A DNA stretch of 21,168 nt from a virus. The notes under the pieces were generated by a model. That model was not told the DNA's origin. It worked only from the letters and a program-made list of their open reading frames with translations, and made no database searches. Positions within the stretch are counted from its first letter, which is position 1; every line of letters begins with the position of its first letter. The stretch is taken from positions 1 through 21,168 of IMG/VR virus record IMGVR_UViG_3300006810_000496. One strand, written 5' to 3'. A program made the position numbers and the translations under genes. This document shows positions 2,817 through 20,230 of the stretch, in pieces.

Positions 2817-3311
2817 ATGTATCAATATAGTTTTGCAAATGTAGACCTTATCTTAGAAATCCCTGACTCGACTGGTGTTTATCAGTCTATCACAGTTCGT
2901 GGTTTTGCTACAGGTGAGAACCTAATTAACATTCAACGTCGTGCGCCTATCGCAACAACTCAGTTTGGTGCGTATGGTGATATGGTTGTGTCAATGCAGC
3001 GTATCAAAGCTGGTGACTTGACATTCCCTGTACTGATGAATGCGCCTGAAAACAAACTGTTGCAGGATTACTGTAACTACTTCCAAGAGCAAGCAGATGC
3101 AGATGGGTCATTAGTGTTCCCAATCCAAGCCGCGTTGAAAGATAACATGGGCAAGGATGAGGCACGTTTAGATAATGGTGTCATCTTAGCTATCCCTGCC
3201 ATTACTCGTGGTCAGACAATGAACACAGTAACTTGGATTCTCACGTTTGAAAATATCGACATTAAGCGTAATGTTGGTGAAGATGCTACACAATTTGGTG
3301 TACAACTCTAA
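2817..3311 (+). CDS. Tail tube protein (DUF3277-like)
   Basis: A 164-residue protein directly after the sheath, the standard place for the inner tube subunit. It shows an N-terminal strand (YQYSFANVDLILEI), a turn with GFATGENLINIQRRAPI, and the segment GAYGDMVVSMQRIKAGDLTFPV, followed by a helix (ENKLLQDYCNYFQEQA). This order is what I recall for the DUF3277 family paired with DUF3383 sheaths. AGGA lies about 9 bases before ATG 2817. Arg is almost always CGT, again the high-expression pattern. The gene ends just before an intrinsic terminator, so sheath and tube close an abundant transcript. Confidence 0.85.
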   Translation: MYQYSFANVDLILEIPDSTGVYQSITVRGFATGENLINIQRRAPIATTQFGAYGDMVVSMQRIKAGDLTFPVLMNAPENKLLQDYCNYFQEQADADGSLVFPIQAALKDNMGKDEARLDNGVILAIPAITRGQTMNTVTWILTFENIDIKRNVGEDATQFGVQL

Positions 3312-3374: not shown

Positions 3375-3764
3375 ATGTCAGGAAACAAAGAATATAGAAA
3401 CTCTTTAAAAGATGGCAGAGAAATTTACATTCCTCATTGGCCAGTAGATGTTTCATTAGAAAATCTTACTAAAGCTGGTAAGATTTTAGGTACAGAAAAC
3501 ATTATTCGTATTGCAGAGCTGAACATTCCAGCGTCTATTGTTGCAGTTATGAATTGTGAAAACCCAGCAGTCGCTTCTGCACTGGTGAAACACTTTGTAT
3601 GCCAAGTGCGTATCGAAGGTAAGAAGATTGACACAACTACAATCAATAATATGTTTGCAGGCGATCTTCATGGTGTTATTGAACTATTCACTCATGTTAT
3701 CCATAGTCAGTATTCAGATTTTTTCAGCTTAGGTTTAGCAAAGGTAGTCTCCCAAGAGCAGTAG
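3375..3764 (+). CDS. Tail assembly chaperone, upstream frame (G-like)
   Basis: A 129-residue protein between the tube and the tape-measure gene, the fixed place of the tail assembly chaperone in many tailed phages. That chaperone coats the tape measure protein and recruits tube subunits. The start ATG 3375 has a strong AAGGAG site 7 bases upstream. The protein has an N-terminal strand region with Gly-Arg-Glu-Ile-Tyr, then mostly helices. Near its end, codons GAT-TTT-TTC create a slippery heptamer at 3719-3725. A -1 shift there would bypass the TAG at 3762-3764 and read into the frame of the next ORF, making a G-GT-type fusion. No strong sequence family is recognised; the role rests on position and the overlapping frames. 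Confidence 0.75.
   Translation: MSGNKEYRNSLKDGREIYIPHWPVDVSLENLTKAGKILGTENIIRIAELNIPASIVAVMNCENPAVASALVKHFVCQVRIEGKKIDTTTINNMFAGDLHGVIELFTHVIHSQYSDFFSLGLAKVVSQEQ
3719..3725 (+). other. Candidate -1 programmed frameshift site
   Basis: In the reading frame of the chaperone the bases read T TTT TTC, a canonical X XXY YYZ slippery heptamer. The -1 frame is open from 3707 through the downstream ORF to 3985, so a shift gives a fusion of about 203 residues. A second, weaker slippery tetramer (A AAG, 3740-3743) lies within the same overlap. A strong hairpin begins at 3762, 36 bases after the heptamer. That is farther than the usual 5-9 base spacer, so the stimulator is uncertain. Confidence 0.6.
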
Positions 3765-3782
3765 TCTCTGGAGAAGAGACTA
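3762..3782 (+). promoter_or_regulatory. Hairpin hiding a ribosome binding site
   Basis: TAGTCTCT (3762-3769) is perfectly complementary to AGAGACTA (3775-3782), an 8-bp stem with loop GGAGA. The stem begins at the stop codon of the upstream chaperone frame. The loop holds the GGAG that would serve as ribosome binding site for ATG 3785, 11 bases on. Independent initiation of the downstream frame may therefore be weak unless ribosomes ending at 3762 open the stem. It could also influence frameshifting. Confidence 0.55.
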
Positions 3783-3784
3783 GG

Positions 3785-3985
3785 ATGCCTGTAGACTATA
3801 GCCAAATATATCCCAAACTTAATGGGTATTTTGTTAGACCTTTGCTTGTAAATCCTCCACTTTGTAGCTTGAAAGAGTTGCAAGATGGAACCTATACAAT
3901 AGCTGACTTGGAAATGTTACACCAAGTTATTGAAATTAGAAACCACCAAACCCCAACATTGCCAAATCCAAATCAAAGTAACTAA
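3785..3985 (+). CDS. Tail assembly chaperone, downstream frame (T-like)
   Basis: A 66-residue frame (if started at ATG 3785) that lies in the -1 frame relative to the preceding chaperone and stays open back to 3707. Its content (a Pro-rich strand region, then SLKELQDGTYTIADLEMLHQ, a helix, and a Pro/Asn tail) resembles the T part of G/GT tail chaperones, which bind the tape measure protein. It is probably made mainly as a frameshift fusion. Separate initiation is possible, but the ribosome binding site is in the loop of a hairpin. It ends 9 bases before the tape-measure start, in keeping with its proposed partner. Confidence 0.65.
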   Translation: MPVDYSQIYPKLNGYFVRPLLVNPPLCSLKELQDGTYTIADLEMLHQVIEIRNHQTPTLPNPNQSN

Positions 3986-3994
3986 GGAGTTATA

Positions 3995-6900
3995 ATGAAT
4001 TACGATGAAGATGAAAATTTTGGCTTTTCCGTAGATGGAGAAGAAGACTTAGATGGCTTTTCTATCACTGGTGAAGACGATGGATTTGATATTCTAGCCG
4101 AAGAAGGCGACGCTATGGGAGATGCTTGGCTTACTGGCAGTGCAGAAGGCCAGACCAATAAGCTAGATGCAGACACAGTAGACGGAATCGTAAGTGGAGA
4201 TGGACTAGAACAGCCAGATCATTTGGTAGGTGCAGCAAAGATTTCTGACTTACAACTTGGAAGAATTGATGGTGTAAGCTACGGTGTACAAGCTGGAATC
4301 AAAGCTATACTAGAAAAACGAGATGTAGCTGGGATTGACCCATTAGATGCTGCTGCTGCCAGACAAGTGTTTGGTGAACTTATTGGCATGGACACTGCAA
4401 AGTTTGCAAGCCAAATTAAAGTAGATGAAACAGTAGAACTACCTAATAGCTATCAAGATCATCGAAAGATTTTGTCTATGTTACAAAATACTTCTGGTGA
4501 GTACTTAGATAGAGGGCCAGGAGCTGCTTTAGTAAACAAGTTCAATGACGAAAAGCAAGAGAAGGAAAATGAAGAACTTCTGGAAGCATTTGATATTGTC
4601 AAAGAAATTGCTGACCATTACATACACCCTAATACAATAGGGACTGATGTTGAGAAAGGCAGAAGGCGGTCACTAGAAGATGCCATTACATTAAGATTAA
4701 GGGATGGAGTATTCTTTGATAATTCCAGAGACATTCTTCCCCTACCTAATGAAACTGGCGTAGCTGGTATCAAAATCACCCAAGGTATATGGCCATCAAG
4801 GTTGGGTACTTCCGAGGACAGAGTATCTGCTGCTGGCAAATTTGATCATCTATATAAAAGCAATAAAGTTGATGGAATTCGTACCAAGTTTGAAAGAGAC
4901 GAAAATCATTACAAAGTGTTTGTAGATGGAGTAACAGAGGAAGAACGCAGAAGAGTTCTAACTCGTACACCGTCTGTAAGGTCTTCAATATTTCCAAACC
5001 CGACCAAATCGGAAATAGAGAAGAATGCTTGGACAGAAGAGACTGTAGAGAAAAAGAAAGCTGAGAACAAAAAAGCTTATGAAGAGTTGATAACCAAGGC
5101 TAATAAAGCAAGGGCAACATTCATTAAACAGTTTCCTACAATCCATGATGAAAACTATAAGCAAAACCGTACAGCAGGTAAACAGTCACCAACTGACCAT
5201 TTTGATAAAATACGCAACCTGATGGATGAAGCTGCTATCCTTGGTAAAGATTGGGATGGTGGTACTGACTATGATACTGTAGGTAGTGCTACAGGTATTA
5301 TATATGGAACCTCAATTTTGCCTGAAATAAGTTTGAAGGAAGCTGCTAGAAGAACTTCCCAAACTGAAATGGAAAAAGTCAATGGTGTAGAAATTGGATA
5401 TAGTTTCGATGAAGAATACATAAGCCATGAAGGTGGATTGTGGAGACCTTCTGAAATTAGATACCAGAAAGCAATGAATGAAGCCATAGCAAAACACAAT
5501 GACAAAGTGACTGCTGGCGAATACGTTAATCAAGGTACTGGGAAAGGTTCTGATAGAGGTGGAATGTATGGCTACAAGAAACAATCGGAAATATCCCGAC
5601 ATATTGAGGATGCGCTTGATGAAGAAGAAGAACAGAGAATGGCTGACATTAAGGAAGGCAGATTCTCACAAGGTACGCAAGCGTGGCTAGATCAACGTAA
5701 AGGTAAGATCACAGCTTCTACTGCTGCTACGTTACTTAAACCTATGGGTGCGGAAGAAATGGCTGTTAAGTTAGCTTCCGAGAGATTAGGTATTGCTTCA
5801 TCAGACGAACCTAATGCACACATGCGAGAAGGTAATGACGGTGAAGAAAAAGCCCTCACAGCATTCCTAATGGGAGAAGGTAAAGGCTTGCACATGGAAG
5901 AGGCTTTCTTTGAGACTCACATGGACTATGAAGGCTTTGGTGTATCCCCAGATGGTAGGTTATATGAAGAAGCATTTGACCCTGACAACCCTGAAAAAGT
6001 TAGGAAAAGTGCTGGACTGTTAGAGTTAAAATTCTTATCTACTAATAGGATGGAGGGAGCACTAGATAGATATATGCCACAAATGCAGATGCAAATGGCT
6101 ATAGCTGGTGAAAGCCAAACCCACTTCTATGCACTAGACAAGCACACTGGCGATAACATGCACTACGTAGTTAAAGCCGACCCTAAAATGCAAAAGAAAC
6201 TTCTTAAAGCTGGTTGGAAAGCTAAACAGCTTGAGCAAGACTTAGACCCACTAGGAGCACAGGAATTGAGGAAGAAAATTAAAGCTCGTAGAGAGTATGA
6301 CCCTAGAACCGAAAAGCAGATTGCAGAAGATGCTGCTAAAGAAGAAGCAGAGCTAAGGGCTAAAGCTGGAGAAGATGGTCAAACCAAAGCTTTTGAAACA
6401 GCAGATGATGACCAACCCATGACACCTTTTGAAGAAGATGTAGCTGAGGCTTTAGATAGTGAAGAAGATTTACTAACAAGTGACTCTGAGTTTGCAGTGG
6501 AGTATCGCAAGCAGATGAAGAGAAGAAAACAAAGCGAACTTTCAGCAAGGGTTAAAGAAGCTATTGAATCAAGCCTTACTACCGCTGATGGTGAAGGTGG
6601 GTCTAGTGGTGATAAGAAAGAAACAGTTAAAGCTGTCTCGGCACCTAAAGAAAATCCTGCTAATAAAGAACTTGCTGAGTTTTACCAGACTCACAAGAAA
6701 TTGTTGGAAGAAGAGGCTAGACTAAAAGAGGCTTCCAGAGCAAGAAAGAAATCTAAAGTCAAAGATGCCACAGCAGAAGCGGAAATGTCAGAGTTTTACA
6801 AGACAAATAAAAGTGTACTTGGAAAACGTAACCAGCTTGAAAGTGCTGCTGCCATGGAAGCTACAGCTACGTCCCTATCTTTACCAGACCTTAAAGGTGA

Positions 6901-8404
6901 TGTTGCAACAGCATTAGCTAACGAGGACTTAGAAACAAGCGACTCTCCTATTGCAGTTGAGTATCGTAAGCAAATGAAGAGTAAGGATGATGAGGCACTT
7001 AAACAAGCTGTATCAGAAGCAATAAGCCCAGATCATACTTCTACAGATAACTTATCTAAAGCGCAAGAAAATGCTACCAAAGCTACTAAAGAAGCGGAAA
7101 GATCAGTACGAAACTTTACTAGTGCAATGGGTAAAGCTATTGGTGTTCTTGGAGAACTTGGTGGTGTGGTTGCCGATGGTAACAAATCTGCTATGGATAC
7201 TATTCGTATGGCAGCAGAAACAGGACAGACTCACCAAGAAGTACGTGGTATGGAAAGGGCTTTAAAGGCTGGCTCACTAGATCAGCAAGGTGCGCTAAAC
7301 GTAATTAATGCAGCTTCCAGAAAAGCAATGCTTTTCAGAGATGAAAAGAGTACTGCTGCGGAAATCAAAAGTCTTCACCACAAAATAGGTCTAAGTAACC
7401 TAGAAGAAGTCCATAACTTGAAGTTACCAGATGTGTGGGAATTACAAAACCTGAAGCCTAATGAACTTCTTAACTTGTATGGTACTCTGATAGAAGGGAT
7501 AGAAGACCCAATGGCTAGAGCACAGGCTTCTGAAATTCTATTAGGTACATCTGAATTTGCAATGTTCAATAAAGATGCTGACAGTCTTCTGGATCTAAAC
7601 AATAGCATAAATAAAGAAGGTGCTATTGAAACCGAACAAGGTTTAAACTGGGTAAGGCATACTTGGCAAGATGTGAAAGAGGACGTAGGTAGCTTAGGCT
7701 TTGGCGTAGGTGTTCTTGCTGGTGGGTCAGGTTTAGCAGCATTAGCTGTTAAGTCTCAAACTGGTAAAGCAGTTGCTAGCCAACTGGCCAAATCTAAAAC
7801 AGCTCAGAAGGGTGCTCAAGCAACAGCTAGTAAACTTAATACTGCTAAAGATGTGACTAAAGTTGCAGGAGGTAAAGTCACCAACGCAGCAGGCAAGGCT
7901 TTACAGACTGCCTCGAAGCTAAACCCTGTAGGATTAGCAACTGCGGCAGTATCAATCGGTGGCAGAACTGTAGGTGGTGTGGAAGATGATGGTGGCCTAG
8001 CTGATAGCGCATTAGATGTACTAGAGTTTGCCAGCTCAGGTTCTGCTCTTGGTATGGGCATAGGTGCTGGTATTGGTGTATGGGCTGGTGGTATTGGTGC
8101 TGCACCTGGAGCTGCTATTGGTGCTACCTTGGGTGGTATTGCTGGTGGTGTTATAGGTGTTGGTAACGAGCTTTGGGAATGGGCAACTGGTGATGATGAT
8201 GAAGTCAAGGCTAGTGCTATTCCAAGCGCAAACATAGGAGCTATCAATCAGCAAAGTACGCCTATAGCAGAAAAGAGTAAGAATATAGTAAATGTGGAAG
8301 TTACAAATGAAATCTCACCAGATTTGATTAAGACAACCACAGGTGTTAATGGGGACTTAACAGTTGATCAAGAATCAACTAATAGCACAGGAACTTATTA
8401 CTAA
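3995..8404 (+). CDS. Tape-measure-position protein with embedded YqaJ-type exonuclease domain
   Basis: A 1469-residue protein, by far the largest in the window, between the tail chaperones and the baseplate hub: the tape measure place. ATG 3995 has AAGGAG. Parts: a very acidic N-terminus (1-45); a long charged region; a YqaJ/lambda-exonuclease-like domain at about 557-730; two kinds of internal repeat (812-860 with 966-1015; 893-905 with 931-943); a helical region from about 1025; and glycine-rich hydrophobic segments at about 1231-1255 and 1350-1398 with GxxxG spacing that could enter membrane. The nuclease domain has QGTQAWLDQRKGKITAS at its start, E617, SPDG with D653, the ELK pair E677/K679, and the Gln-rich MPQMQMQM at 694-701. 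These match the catalytic set of the family. Tape measure by position, helical content and hydrophobic end; nuclease by motif. No lytic transglycosylase motif seen. Confidence 0.8.
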   Translation: MNYDEDENFGFSVDGEEDLDGFSITGEDDGFDILAEEGDAMGDAWLTGSAEGQTNKLDADTVDGIVSGDGLEQPDHLVGAAKISDLQLGRIDGVSYGVQAGIKAILEKRDVAGIDPLDAAAARQVFGELIGMDTAKFASQIKVDETVELPNSYQDHRKILSMLQNTSGEYLDRGPGAALVNKFNDEKQEKENEELLEAFDIVKEIADHYIHPNTIGTDVEKGRRRSLEDAITLRLRDGVFFDNSRDILPLPNETGVAGIKITQGIWPSRLGTSEDRVSAAGKFDHLYKSNKVDGIRTKFERDENHYKVFVDGVTEEERRRVLTRTPSVRSSIFPNPTKSEIEKNAWTEETVEKKKAENKKAYEELITKANKARATFIKQFPTIHDENYKQNRTAGKQSPTDHFDKIRNLMDEAAILGKDWDGGTDYDTVGSATGIIYGTSILPEISLKEAARRTSQTEMEKVNGVEIGYSFDEEYISHEGGLWRPSEIRYQKAMNEAIAKHNDKVTAGEYVNQGTGKGSDRGGMYGYKKQSEISRHIEDALDEEEEQRMADIKEGRFSQGTQAWLDQRKGKITASTAATLLKPMGAEEMAVKLASERLGIASSDEPNAHMREGNDGEEKALTAFLMGEGKGLHMEEAFFETHMDYEGFGVSPDGRLYEEAFDPDNPEKVRKSAGLLELKFLSTNRMEGALDRYMPQMQMQMAIAGESQTHFYALDKHTGDNMHYVVKADPKMQKKLLKAGWKAKQLEQDLDPLGAQELRKKIKARREYDPRTEKQIAEDAAKEEAELRAKAGEDGQTKAFETADDDQPMTPFEEDVAEALDSEEDLLTSDSEFAVEYRKQMKRRKQSELSARVKEAIESSLTTADGEGGSSGDKKETVKAVSAPKENPANKELAEFYQTHKKLLEEEARLKEASRARKKSKVKDATAEAEMSEFYKTNKSVLGKRNQLESAAAMEATATSLSLPDLKGDVATALANEDLETSDSPIAVEYRKQMKSKDDEALKQAVSEAISPDHTSTDNLSKAQENATKATKEAERSVRNFTSAMGKAIGVLGELGGVVADGNKSAMDTIRMAAETGQTHQEVRGMERALKAGSLDQQGALNVINAASRKAMLFRDEKSTAAEIKSLHHKIGLSNLEEVHNLKLPDVWELQNLKPNELLNLYGTLIEGIEDPMARAQASEILLGTSEFAMFNKDADSLLDLNNSINKEGAIETEQGLNWVRHTWQDVKEDVGSLGFGVGVLAGGSGLAALAVKSQTGKAVASQLAKSKTAQKGAQATASKLNTAKDVTKVAGGKVTNAAGKALQTASKLNPVGLATAAVSIGGRTVGGVEDDGGLADSALDVLEFASSGSALGMGIGAGIGVWAGGIGAAPGAAIGATLGGIAGGVIGVGNELWEWATGDDDEVKASAIPSANIGAINQQSTPIAEKSKNIVNVEVTNEISPDLIKTTTGVNGDLTVDQESTNSTGTYY
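5663..6184 (+). other. YqaJ / lambda-exonuclease-like domain inside the tape-measure gene
   Basis: Codons 557-730 encode the nuclease domain. This PD-(D/E)XK family includes lambda Red exonuclease and YqaJ, which digest one strand from double-stranded ends. Seen in order: the Trp/Arg entry motif (Q559 to S575), the acidic residue after a glycine (G613, E617), D653 in GVSPDG, E677-x-K679 in GLLELKF, and the Gln cluster with a following MAIAG. These line up with lambda exonuclease E85, D119, E129, K131 and Q157 by my reading. All needed metal-binding and catalytic positions appear intact. No single-strand annealing partner lies nearby. Confidence 0.82.
6428..7024 (+). repeat. Two nested protein repeats downstream of the nuclease domain
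   Basis: Residues about 812-860 and 966-1015 of the tape-measure protein repeat each other. Both have an acidic D-V-A-x-A-L start, a TSDS turn, the identical core AVEYRKQMK (834-842 and 987-995) and a following helix with EAI. Between them, ELAEFYQTHKKLL (893-905) recurs as EMSEFYKTNKSVL (931-943). At the DNA level the copies differ at many third positions, so the duplication is old and kept at protein level. Function unknown; binding modules or helical spacers are possible. Confidence 0.7.
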
Positions 8405-9360
8405 TGGCAGTATCTAAGTTTGGGCAGTATGTACTGTTGCAAGTACATGATAAAAATGATAAGACTGTTTTTGAATCAGACAGTCTTAAAATTAATTTCG
8501 ATGTAAGAATCATTGCTGACTTTAGCAGAGCTAAAATTACTATATGTAATCTTAACCAAGAAACCATACAGTTGCTAATGAAGGAAGACTCACATTATGT
8601 AACTGTCTGGACTTCATTGCATGGCTCGGAACGTCAAAAGGTTATTGATGGGCTATATGTAAGTAACGCACTAGAGGAGTTAAAACTACCTCAAAGTGAA
8701 TTTAGCATATATGCCTACTCAAAACTAAAAGCTGAATATTTGGAAAAGCCTGTTGACCTTAAAGTTACTCAGCCTAGCCTAAAGAAAGTAATCATACAAG
8801 TGCTAGACAATGCTGGCTATACTGGCCAAGTAGAGTTTAAGCATTTCCCAAGTGATATTCTGTCTTATGTGAATTATAGACCTACCAGACGAGAGGGCAC
8901 TCTTTTGAGTGTTCTCAAAACGCTTGGTAAGGAGTATGGATTTACTATGTACACAGATGGCAATAAATTTACATTTATGTATAAAGCCAAGTTTGCTAAT
9001 GCAGAATCCACTGAGCTGTTTTTCTCAAAAGATAGTATCAAATTAGATACCAGTAATATGAGGGCCAATCCTAGATTGGGTGCAGGTCAACTTGATGTAA
9101 CATCAAACCTAGACCCTAGGATTAAGCCAGCAGTAGTCTTAGATATTACAGACTTGATTGCAGTAGATATTGGGGAACAGCAAGATACGTTAGAGCTTGC
9201 AAGAAACCTTGTAAGAAAGTCAATAGCTGGTAAGAGCAAGTATCAAGCATCTGAGGTGCAACATAAAGGCTCAAACTGGGAAGATGTTTGGCTTACACAA
9301 GTAGTAGCTTATCCACCTACTCAGGGCACAACAATGCCTACTGACAAGTGGTGGACTTAA
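8404..9360 (+). CDS. Baseplate hub-like protein
   Basis: A 318-residue protein that starts on the last base of the tape-measure stop (TAATG), so it is translationally coupled. The place after the tape measure and before the spike is that of the hub that closes the tube (gp27 / Mu gp44 / P2 gpD-type). Its layout agrees: an N-terminal beta domain with DGLYVSNALEELK, then SLKKVIIQVLDNAGY, and the hub-like EGTLLSVLKTLGKEYGFTMYTDG. The C-terminus ends in a short tail with PPTQGTTMPTDKWWT. No peptidoglycan hydrolase motif is visible. The role is mostly inferred from order and fold-like pattern. Confidence 0.6.
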   Translation: MAVSKFGQYVLLQVHDKNDKTVFESDSLKINFDVRIIADFSRAKITICNLNQETIQLLMKEDSHYVTVWTSLHGSERQKVIDGLYVSNALEELKLPQSEFSIYAYSKLKAEYLEKPVDLKVTQPSLKKVIIQVLDNAGYTGQVEFKHFPSDILSYVNYRPTRREGTLLSVLKTLGKEYGFTMYTDGNKFTFMYKAKFANAESTELFFSKDSIKLDTSNMRANPRLGAGQLDVTSNLDPRIKPAVVLDITDLIAVDIGEQQDTLELARNLVRKSIAGKSKYQASEVQHKGSNWEDVWLTQVVAYPPTQGTTMPTDKWWT

Positions 9361-13796: not shown

Positions 13797-14870
13797 ATGA
13801 CTACTCCAGTAGGTTTAGAACTAATTTGGGCACTGTCTGGCGGTGTCTCAGACCCAACTAATGCAAAATATGAGCTTGGTTGGGTAGCAGAAAAGCCAAC
13901 TTACCAGAACTTTAACTGGGTTTTACAAAACCTTGATAAGGCTAAGTTAGCCCTTGCAGAGTCAGATGTTTGGCCGTGGCAAGAGAAGATTGGATACCAG
14001 CTTGGTGCGAAAGTAATCAGGAATGGTATTATCTATCGTTGCGTAGAAGCCCACAATAGTGTTGTTAATAACAACCCACAAGACCCTGCCTTAGATAGCA
14101 CCAACTCTTATTGGGTCACAGGCGCAGTATTTAGTAAGACCAGCCTAGCTTACGACTTCTTGCAACAGGAAGATGGTGTTGCTATTAATGAAGTAAATGA
14201 TAGACCTGCTACGCCAACTTGCTTGTGGTATGGCAATGAGTTGACTCTTAACAATACCTACTCAGTTATTGCACTTAATACTTTAGATAGTAGTAAGAAG
14301 AATTGGGTATTTGGTAATGTGGATGGAGAAATGGTAGTAGTTGATGTAGGTAACACTAACTATCACCCAGACCCTACCATACCACTAAAGCCAAGTCCGA
14401 CTAATACTGCCTACAGAGTGTACCACGAAGGCTACAAACCTGCAGTGGGTGACGTGCATAATGCAGTTGAAGAAGCTCCCCTAGATGGCCAAACCTATGG
14501 TCGTAAGAATGGGCAGTGGGTTCCTGTAACTGGAGACCACATTGGCACTGCTCCTCCTCCTCCATCAACAGGTAGTGGCACTAAATGGTACAACTTAGAT
14601 GATGGTGTACTGTATGTTGATATTGATGATGGTGATAGTTCCCAATGGGTTCCAGGCAATCCGCCAAATGCACCTAATACTTATCAACAACCAGCGGTAA
14701 ACCAAGCCCAGTTGCAAGATATTACTCATGAAATTAACACAAGTGATGACAAGCGAGCTGGCTATCAAGTGTATGACACAACCACTCGTCAGCCTTTATG
14801 GGCTTATGATAATCATGATGCAAGTACTTGGCGTGATGCAAGTGGTAACATTATTTATACACCTTCTTAA
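13797..14870 (+). CDS. Tail fibre protein, baseplate-proximal
   Basis: A 357-residue protein following the gpI-like wedge. The N-terminus carries GWVAEKPTYQNFNWVLQNL, a motif common at the start of tail fibres that attach to simple baseplates. Residues about 60-105 (WPWQEKIGYQLGAKVIRNG, then IYRCVEAH) resemble the small carbohydrate-binding CBM5/12-type fold: Trp, Y-x-x-G-x-x-V, then Y-x-C. Further on there is a repeat-like DGQTYGRKNGQWVPVTG and a similar GTKWYNLDDGVLYVD stretch, seen in fibre shafts. It probably carries or anchors the two following receptor-binding proteins. ATG 13797 has GAGG upstream. Confidence 0.7.
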   Translation: MTTPVGLELIWALSGGVSDPTNAKYELGWVAEKPTYQNFNWVLQNLDKAKLALAESDVWPWQEKIGYQLGAKVIRNGIIYRCVEAHNSVVNNNPQDPALDSTNSYWVTGAVFSKTSLAYDFLQQEDGVAINEVNDRPATPTCLWYGNELTLNNTYSVIALNTLDSSKKNWVFGNVDGEMVVVDVGNTNYHPDPTIPLKPSPTNTAYRVYHEGYKPAVGDVHNAVEEAPLDGQTYGRKNGQWVPVTGDHIGTAPPPPSTGSGTKWYNLDDGVLYVDIDDGDSSQWVPGNPPNAPNTYQQPAVNQAQLQDITHEINTSDDKRAGYQVYDTTTRQPLWAYDNHDASTWRDASGNIIYTPS

Positions 14871-18094: not shown

Positions 18095-20230
18095 ATGAGC
18101 ATTACTAACTTAATCAACAAAGCTAAAGCAAACAACAACGTAACTAAAACAACTAATGAGGAACTAACAATGAACAATGAAATCGTAACCTTCGACGAGC
18201 AACCAAACTTAGAAGTACAACCTTTAGTAGAAGCAGTCGCAACAACTGAGGAGAACAATATCAAGTTGGGCGATGTAATTAATGTAAACGCTTTATCAAG
18301 TACAGTTGCAGCAACACTGTTTCATGTACTTGAGAATGCGCAACAAGCAATTATGGCAGCTTGTGCAATTTGTGACGCAGTTGAACTTAGCGACAACTTA
18401 GGAATGCCGGAAGCGTTCTTTGGGATGATTGAAAGTGTTTTAGAAAGTTCTTCAATGAAGTCAACTTTGTCAGGCAACGGAGCTATTACTACCACTTCCC
18501 ATGAGGTAGAGGTAGACATGGATATACTAGAGGCTGCCATGCAAGAGACAGGCCTAGTCACTGACACTGGGGAGATGGGTGCTAAGCTAATCGAGATGCT
18601 AGAGCAACGTACAGAGGCATACGCTCCTATTGAGGTTGGCACTAAGTGGGAACGTCGCTTTCCATTATATGCTCCGGAGAAAGGTCAAGTTAGTCCATTG
18701 GCTATTGAGTCTATCAAGGTGCTTGAAAGTACACAGTTTACAAAGTGTAGAATAATGACACCTATTGCAAACGAAGTACAAGCTATCTTAGGTCGTGACA
18801 ATGACGACGAGGCTTATGTGTTAGATGGTTGCAACAAGATGGACGAGAACAAAGCGTATATCTCAGAGTTCAAAGCTGATAGACGTATTCGTGAGTATCA
18901 AGCATCATGTCATGGTCCAAATGGTCAAGCTAGTGATCGTTCAAGAGCTTGTCAGGAGTTAGTTGGTGTTCCAACTGATTACTGTGTAGAAACAGTTAAG
19001 AAGGCTATTAAGGCTGAGGTGATGGATATGGTGAACATACCAATGAACAAGGTTGGTAAGTTAATGTCTATTGCAGCTAAAGACCCAGTGGCTTTCATTG
19101 TTGGTGAGTTACGTAAGGCTAAGAAAGATCGTGACGCAGCTAAGCCTTGGTCATTTGTTAAAGCTGCTTTGATCTGGATTGAGTTACAGAAAGGTAACAG
19201 ACCTTACATTGGCATGGCTGTTGGCTTAGATGCTAAATGTTCAGGTCCACAGTTAGGTGCTTTGATGTCAGGTGATGCCGAAGTAGCTGCTGCTTGTGGA
19301 TTCTCAGTAGTAGAGATTGAAGATGCTTACCATAGAGCAATCCGTGAGCTTAACAAAGCAGGCTTCACAGGATTTACAATGAAGAACCGTGGCGACATTA
19401 AGAAGCCTTTCATGGGTATCTTCTATGGTCAAAGCTGGATGGCTTACACTGACTTAGCTCAGATGCGTAAAGACGAGCAAGATGTACTGATTGAGGAGTT
19501 GTATCCAAACGGTGTTGCTGATGATGAAACTGCAAAGCGTTTCCACAAAGCAATTACTAAGTCATTTGGTAAGAAGATGGTTGCAGTACGTAATCGCTTC
19601 AAGGACTTCCATAACAAGGTTGATGGTCGTATCTCTCACATGATGCCAGACGGTTCTAAGGTAATCATGAACTATAAAGTTCAACAGAACATCTTAGGTG
19701 AAGAAGTTGAGTATGATACAGCATGCCCAGACGTACAAGTTACGACTGAAAACAATACATACAAGTTCATTAAGTTGGCCTTGAATACACGTAAGGTCAA
19801 TACAAACAACTTTGTACGTAATGGCTTTGTGAATATGATTCAAGCAACAGATGCCTTGATCGCTCGATTGATCATTGTGCATTTGGGTCGCTTGGGAGCT
19901 AAGCACGTGATTTCAGTTCATGACTGTTTCCGTGTAAATGTAACTGAGATGCACTTGCTAGAACAAGCTATCAAGAACGCTTACATGGACTTATTTGGTT
20001 CACGTACTAACGTCAAGACTAAGGACTTGCCACTTGGTACTGACATCTTAGGCATGTATTTCAAAGGTGCTAACGATAGAGTACTAGCTGAGGAAGATAA
20101 GATCACTCCAATCAGCCAGTTCATGAAAGTGAGCAAAGTGGGTGAGGTTCGTAAGTTGTTGCACATCAACCGTGTAGCTGTACCTGAGCTTATCAACCAA
20201 CTTGGTACAACTTACTACTTCGCTAAGTAA
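18095..20230 (+). CDS. T7-type single-subunit RNA polymerase, N-terminally short
   Basis: A 711-residue DNA-dependent RNA polymerase. Residues aligned by eye to T7 RNAP (883): D262-R-R-I-R266 for the DxxGR motif (D421-R425), with the Gly replaced by Ile; D379 in LDAKCSG for D537 in FDGSCSG; R432-x3-K436-x7-Y444-G445 for R627, K631, Y639-G640; QATDAL near 590 for the H784 region; and H609-D610 for H811-D812. Spacing from 262 to 379 (117) matches T7 (116). The part before motif DxxGR is about 160 residues shorter, and motifs A to B are about 37 shorter. So promoter-recognition parts are reduced. Two starts are possible: ATG 18095 (AAGGTG upstream) and ATG 18170 (GAGGA). The first 25 residues are low-complexity. 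It should transcribe phage genes from its own promoters. Mostly CGN arginine codons suggest good expression. Confidence 0.92.
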   Translation: MSITNLINKAKANNNVTKTTNEELTMNNEIVTFDEQPNLEVQPLVEAVATTEENNIKLGDVINVNALSSTVAATLFHVLENAQQAIMAACAICDAVELSDNLGMPEAFFGMIESVLESSSMKSTLSGNGAITTTSHEVEVDMDILEAAMQETGLVTDTGEMGAKLIEMLEQRTEAYAPIEVGTKWERRFPLYAPEKGQVSPLAIESIKVLESTQFTKCRIMTPIANEVQAILGRDNDDEAYVLDGCNKMDENKAYISEFKADRRIREYQASCHGPNGQASDRSRACQELVGVPTDYCVETVKKAIKAEVMDMVNIPMNKVGKLMSIAAKDPVAFIVGELRKAKKDRDAAKPWSFVKAALIWIELQKGNRPYIGMAVGLDAKCSGPQLGALMSGDAEVAAACGFSVVEIEDAYHRAIRELNKAGFTGFTMKNRGDIKKPFMGIFYGQSWMAYTDLAQMRKDEQDVLIEELYPNGVADDETAKRFHKAITKSFGKKMVAVRNRFKDFHNKVDGRISHMMPDGSKVIMNYKVQQNILGEEVEYDTACPDVQVTTENNTYKFIKLALNTRKVNTNNFVRNGFVNMIQATDALIARLIIVHLGRLGAKHVISVHDCFRVNVTEMHLLEQAIKNAYMDLFGSRTNVKTKDLPLGTDILGMYFKGANDRVLAEEDKITPISQFMKVSKVGEVRKLLHINRVAVPELINQLGTTYYFAK

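Follow-up and report, generated by a model that had tools for sequence, protein, structure and literature searches.

The tape measure protein encoded in the viral DNA analysed here contains, at residues 551-750, a lambda-exonuclease/YqaJ domain with the full catalytic set, an identification that is confirmed and lies far beyond chance. The DNA, referred to below as the window, is a 21,168-base fragment of a virus record (IMGVR_UViG_3300006810_000496) and, judged by its proteins, it belongs to a Chaseviridae-like myophage on a deep branch. The domain is probably a 5'-to-3' double-strand-DNA exonuclease and is predicted to be active. The preliminary description of this DNA had treated the arrangement as a feature of one phage; instead it is family-wide in Chaseviridae, being present in 16/16 complete genomes. 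What is new is the virion-borne setting of a known enzyme family.

A nuclease domain inside the tape measure gene

The features of the window on which the analysis rests are the following, with the evidence for each in brackets.

1360-2799, + strand: contractile tail sheath (PF11863, phrog_205; best matches in Chaseviridae)
2817-3311, + strand: probable tail tube protein (PF11681, phrog_280; its slot is that of the tail tube gene of phage 4HA13)
3375-3764, + strand: tail assembly chaperone (phrog_11820, E=1.2e-14)
3719-3985, + strand: probable frameshift site T_TTT_TTC (3719-3725) and chaperone extension frame, annotatable as an ORF at 3785-3985 (phrog_4364, conserved peptide)
3995-8404, + strand: tape measure protein of 1469 aa with embedded exonuclease domain (single frame, slot, Chaseviridae homologues in the same slot)
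5645-6244, + strand: lambda-exonuclease/YqaJ domain, residues 551-750 (Pfam, PDB profile, AlphaFold, Foldseek)
5696-6094, + strand: catalytic set R568 (5696), S575 (5717), E617 (5843), D653 (5951), E677 (6023), K679 (6029) and Q696/Q698/Q700 (6080-6094) (alignment with lambda exonuclease)
7694-8170, + strand: hydrophobic Gly/Ala-rich segments of the tape measure, residues about 1234-1392 (Kyte-Doolittle 19-mers at 1234, 1352 and 1372)
8404-9360, + strand: baseplate hub (phrog_196)
18095-20230, + strand: single-subunit RNA polymerase, a Chaseviridae marker (PF00940; the matches listed are Chaseviridae)

The genes of the window follow each other in the order tail completion, sheath, probable tube, chaperone, the 3785-3985 frame, the long 3995-8404 frame, hub, Dit-like protein, spike and wedge genes. 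The long frame runs for 1469 codons without interruption behind a good ribosome-binding site and, according to Pfam and PHROG matches, sits between the tail-chaperone frames and the baseplate hub. An alternative frame is open from the T_TTT_TTC site into 3785-3985, and the peptide that it encodes is conserved in the related contig L002 and in gp61 of phage phiEcoM-GJ1. The site itself, a probable programmed frameshift of the tail chaperone, is also conserved in L002. A frameshifted chaperone pair usually precedes the tape measure gene, and from its slot behind such a pair and before the hub 3995-8404 was identified as the tape measure gene. Its product is moreover a long protein with hydrophobic C-terminal segments, which score weakly in the Chaseviridae isolates. 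Homologues in Chaseviridae occupy the same slot, and one of them has been annotated as a tail tape measure protein and detected in virions.

Two further observations concern the tail genes. Behind the nuclease, the L002 tape measure (residues about 950-1250) contains about six tandem repeats of some 55 aa, SASGTLFAEKMIKAEQASLSKEALE, and degenerate relatives of these, SEFAVEYRKQMKRRKQSELSARVKEAIES and SPIAVEYRKQMKSKDDEALKQAVSEAISP, are found at residues about 830-1010 of the window protein (about 6482-7024). In the tail fibre region a 357-aa protein (13797-14870) has a chitin-binding CBM_5_12 domain (E=2e-6), which suggests a host or particle surface with chitin.

The window phage was placed beside Chaseviridae on the matches of its sheath and RNA polymerase. 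The sheath has its best matches in this family, with 40% identity to that of Vibrio phage VPs20. The 711-aa RNA polymerase matched 92 phage records; those listed are Chaseviridae, at about 25% identity, and the host genera of the remaining matches are those of Chaseviridae. Such divergence of the polymerase is consistent with a new deep lineage of the family. The window thus encodes both the contractile tail and the family-related single-subunit RNA polymerase that are expected of a member. Genomes of Chaseviridae measure 52-56 kb and have terminal repeats of about 3 kb; the window is a 21-kb fragment, within which no terminal repeats of its own are visible. A shorter contig, L001, is identical to the window; the next closest are the IMG/VR contigs L002 and L003, whose homologue of 1723 aa shares 36% identity in the best segment and has the domain.

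Within the tape measure, the Pfam YqaJ family (PF09588) covers residues 564-705 (E=1.8e-11, a score twice the curated cut-off). The single window sequence already retrieved the alkaline exonuclease LHK-Exo (3SYY) from the PDB by phmmer (E=1e-6), and a profile of 21 tape-measure domains matched LHK-Exo at 2e-30, the mimivirus R354 nuclease at 1e-15 and lambda exonuclease (1AVQ) at 2e-11. An AlphaFold2 model of residues 551-750 reached a mean pLDDT of 92.3 and a pTM of 0.88 with an alignment of 21 rows, the pLDDT having been 49 with 7 rows. The best PDB matches of this model in Foldseek were LHK-Exo and lambda exonuclease (TM 0.72-0.78, probability 1.00), so that the predicted fold is a PD-(D/E)XK fold of lambda-exonuclease type. 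By profile alignment and motif order, R568, S575, E617, D653, E677, K679 and Q696 of the window correspond to R28, S35, E85, D119, E129, K131 and Q157 of lambda exonuclease. The preliminary description had placed a YqaJ/lambda-type domain at 5663-6184 (residues 557-730) of one 1469-codon frame, and Pfam, profile and fold all agree with it. Its numbering of E617, D653, E677, K679 and the Gln cluster was right, and the structure prediction on which it had staked the claim gave the fold, with the pLDDT and Foldseek probability reported above.

Two other accounts of the domain were rejected. A separate nuclease made from an internal start would require a conserved internal start or ribosome-binding site to detach the domain, and there is none. 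A dead remnant does not agree with the strict catalytic pattern, which is intact in 39/39 tape-measure domains, some of them near-duplicates.

Distribution and evolution in Chaseviridae

A search with the YqaJ family in 16 complete Chaseviridae-type records and four IMG/VR contigs found a single match in each genome, in every case within the tape-measure gene, and no stand-alone YqaJ protein in any of them; one contig scored just below the curated cut-off, and the Spp001 frame is broken behind the domain. Further scans added 22 loci, some of them duplicates of isolates, all with the domain, although in the pAh6-C-like locus L037 it was seen only in part, in a broken frame. Among tape-measure domains, identity to that of the window falls to 17-20%.

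In Spp001 (L025, 1378-5069) and in L037 (4593-7678) the tape-measure frame is interrupted within the nuclease domain or directly after it, while close relatives have it intact. These breaks are probably sequencing errors. They are what could be said for the embedded nuclease being an artefact, produced by chimeric assembly or by a frame error that fused a nuclease gene to the tape measure. Many isolates and metagenomic contigs, independent of each other and alike in gene order, nevertheless have the domain intact, and among them are close relatives of both broken sequences. An assembly artefact or gene fusion is refuted by this family-wide conservation, and we regard its probability as negligible. 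In another record, PP952070.1, named Staphylococcus phage Pel53, the tape measure is 88% identical to that of E. coli phage phiEcoM-GJ1, and the Staphylococcus host label may be wrong.

Comparison of homologous tape measures with and without the domain, which the preliminary description had proposed, separates Chaseviridae from their neighbours. Six sister myophages with related sheaths (BUCTT20, Magia, VBM1, yong1, KpV79 and ZCSE2) have no YqaJ match anywhere in their genomes, and the protein in their tape-measure slot is 448-727 aa long, against 1185-1723 aa in the carriers of the domain. In addition to the nuclease, the phiEcoM-GJ1 tape measure has a C-terminal SLT transglycosylase domain, which matches the end of the yong1 protein. 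The lack of YqaJ in the sister phages, the lengths and the SLT match agree with the gain of a nuclease-bearing part by the tape measure.

In the best tree three clades of tape-measure domains (Nefertitivirinae-type, window-type and Cleopatravirinae-type) stand apart from each other among stand-alone enzymes, although one origin is not rejected (p-AU 0.37). The window-type alignment had no matches in bacterial genomes. In four pairs of E. coli members with a shared nuclease allele the domain has a dN/dS of 0.04-0.08, and in three of these pairs no other region of the protein has a lower value.

Virion presence and a possible role at DNA ends

Particles of 4HA13, a member of Chaseviridae, have been purified in CsCl and analysed by LC-MS/MS, and 15 proteins were identified at a coverage of at least 50% (PMC9699118). 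Among the twelve most abundant virion proteins listed there, second place is held by the tape measure (gi 1735348880), an identification of the protein as a whole that is compatible with cleavage between nuclease and ruler, and the passages concerned make no mention of a nuclease in it (PMC9699118). By matching the accession offset we assigned gi 1735348880 to the product of AC4HA13_0067, which has 1204 aa and the YqaJ domain. It is thus supported that the tape measure of one domain-carrying member of the family is a virion protein.

Lambda-type enzymes degrade 5'-phosphorylated strands starting at double-strand ends, and lambda exonuclease is a trimeric ring that is too wide for the tail tube. 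Since the ring is wider than the tube, the virion probably holds the domain in an extended or unfolded state, in which the packaged DNA would also be safe from it. In other phages tape measures are trimers and the DNA end lies close to them or is held by them (PMC11445458, PMC11661146). A trimeric tape measure and a trimeric ring would mean that one tail could supply one ring. The genomes of Chaseviridae are linear and non-permuted, with terminal repeats of about 3 kb (PMC12842549). As the incoming genome would be the chief source of ends in a freshly infected cell, the first target may be the phage's own ends.

The reading that we prefer is a tail-injected exonuclease that works at DNA ends, first of all those of the phage. 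It is quite possible, falling just short of probable, and for it we infer activity, unfolding in the tube, injection, the trimer and the target. About three copies of the tape measure would lie extended or unfolded, and hence inactive, in the tail tube; they would leave the tail together with the leading DNA end or in front of it, and would fold in the cell. Arriving together, the three copies could form one toroidal trimer, which would act on free DNA ends and first on those of the incoming, terminally repeated linear genome. Resection of the repeats would expose complementary single strands, through which circularisation or concatemer formation could follow. In the complete version of this scheme three chains stored unfolded in the tail would regain their fold once ejected and together make up one toroidal exonuclease, which would settle on the end of the entering genome and begin to process it before phage genes are expressed. 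Such an arrangement would be an undescribed tail-injected DNA-processing machine; it is more tentative, and we hold it to be conceivable but somewhat doubtful.

Two observations count against end processing. RecT and ERF annealing proteins, the two families covered by the search, were not found in 14 Chaseviridae-type records and contigs, and a separate 5'-3' exonuclease is encoded by at least phiEcoM-GJ1. A candidate for the annealing partner, the 'recombinase' gp11 of VPs20, was discarded as it matches ribonucleotide reductase. Stand-alone YqaJ relatives do adjoin ERF or RecT proteins, in agreement with the earlier statement that the family normally exists as a stand-alone enzyme encoded with an annealing protein.

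This normal service of the family in recombination, together with the late synthesis of tape measures, could also mean that free or nascent tape measure works late in infection in the producing cell, in recombination or in the processing of concatemers or packaging ends, and is only a passenger in the virion. T4 gp4, as cited in PMC7824862, offers a parallel, being a virion-associated nuclease that is needed for packaging. A free enzyme would however be simpler for such a task, yet the fusion is kept throughout Chaseviridae, and the missing RecT/ERF partner weighs here too. We consider a role confined to the producing cell rather improbable.

Alternatively the domain might hold or guide the DNA, binding the leading end in the tail or at the membrane and so ordering ejection or shielding the end from RecBCD, with catalysis secondary. 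The fold binds DNA ends and the tape measures of JBD30 and 80alpha are located at the DNA end (PMC11445458, PMC11661146). Metal ligands and catalytic lysine are nevertheless kept in all 39 domains, although end binding alone would not require them, and the folded domain is probably too big for the tube lumen. Holding of the end as the main function is improbable as well.

The last alternative is a weapon delivered through the tail, by which the injected exonuclease would attack host DNA at breaks or forks, plasmids or the linear DNA of superinfecting phages, supplying nucleotides or excluding rivals. Tape measures of BSBP01 and of contig L012 are 85-100% identical in most of the flanks and mostly 40-75% identical at residues about 400-700, and this pattern of similar flanks around a divergent centre indicates that the nuclease region was exchanged by recombination. 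Such a swap could be expected of a conflict module, and the active site is conserved in 39/39 domains; the remainder of the tape measure is however mosaic too, so that the swap is no proof of diversifying selection or of a diversifying exchange confined to the nuclease. Lambda-type enzymes start from free double-strand ends, and an intact circular chromosome has none; the few copies per virion would be little for mass destruction, and genes for immunity or for an inhibitor were not recognised. For phage polyvalent proteins the injection of DNases has been proposed (PMC5512222), but on balance a weapon seems unlikely.

If the exonuclease is indeed injected and works at DNA ends, Chaseviridae, including flopper, which grows on E. 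coli K-12 MG1655, may bring in, at the very start of infection, an enzyme for the remodelling of DNA ends. This raises the questions of how a folded enzyme passes through the tail tube, how the packaged DNA is spared and how terminally repeated linear genomes are handled before phage genes are expressed. The tape measure would also show a natural way in which a phage tail can be loaded with a nuclease.

Comparison with known systems

In GenBank the gene of Chaseviridae is named tail fiber, tape measure, hypothetical protein or exonuclease, and a few records (ZPAH14, LA93P2 and SKA49) label it exonuclease, endonuclease or yqaJ. No published description of a YqaJ domain in a Chaseviridae tape measure was found in the openly licensed literature, an earlier description elsewhere being possible, and the 2022 ICTV profile does not mention it.

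The tape measures of phiEcoM-GJ1 (gp62), 4HA13 (AC4HA13_0067) and Aeromonas phage ZPAH14 (gp34) have the same slot and the same embedded domain as that of the window. The branch of the window and L002 is deeper than that of these isolates; its tape measures are longer (1469 and 1723 aa) and have no SLT match. Lambda exonuclease (Red alpha, 1AVQ), LHK-Exo (3SYY) and PF09588 share with the window domain the fold, the catalytic set R/S/E/D/E-x-K/Q and the order of the motifs. The two enzymes are however stand-alone proteins of about 210-230 aa, the phage ones usually encoded beside RecT, Erf or Bet, whereas here the domain is in the middle of a tail protein of 1200-1700 aa and no RecT/ERF was found.

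DNA enters the cell along the tape measure, and wall-degrading enzymes are known components of such proteins. Tape measures with a peptidoglycan hydrolase (TM4 and the SLT-bearing ones) likewise have an enzyme built in, and phiEcoM-GJ1 has the C-terminal SLT domain as well as the nuclease. These hydrolases open the cell wall, whereas the predicted exonuclease of the window would have DNA inside the cell as its substrate. In this respect it resembles the polyvalent proteins with injected ParB-type DNases (DdrB-like), which are also virion-borne and multidomain and for which the entry of a nuclease together with the DNA has been proposed (PMC5512222). The nuclease fold of those proteins differs from that of the window domain, and neither tape measures nor YqaJ are among the proteins treated there (PMC5512222).
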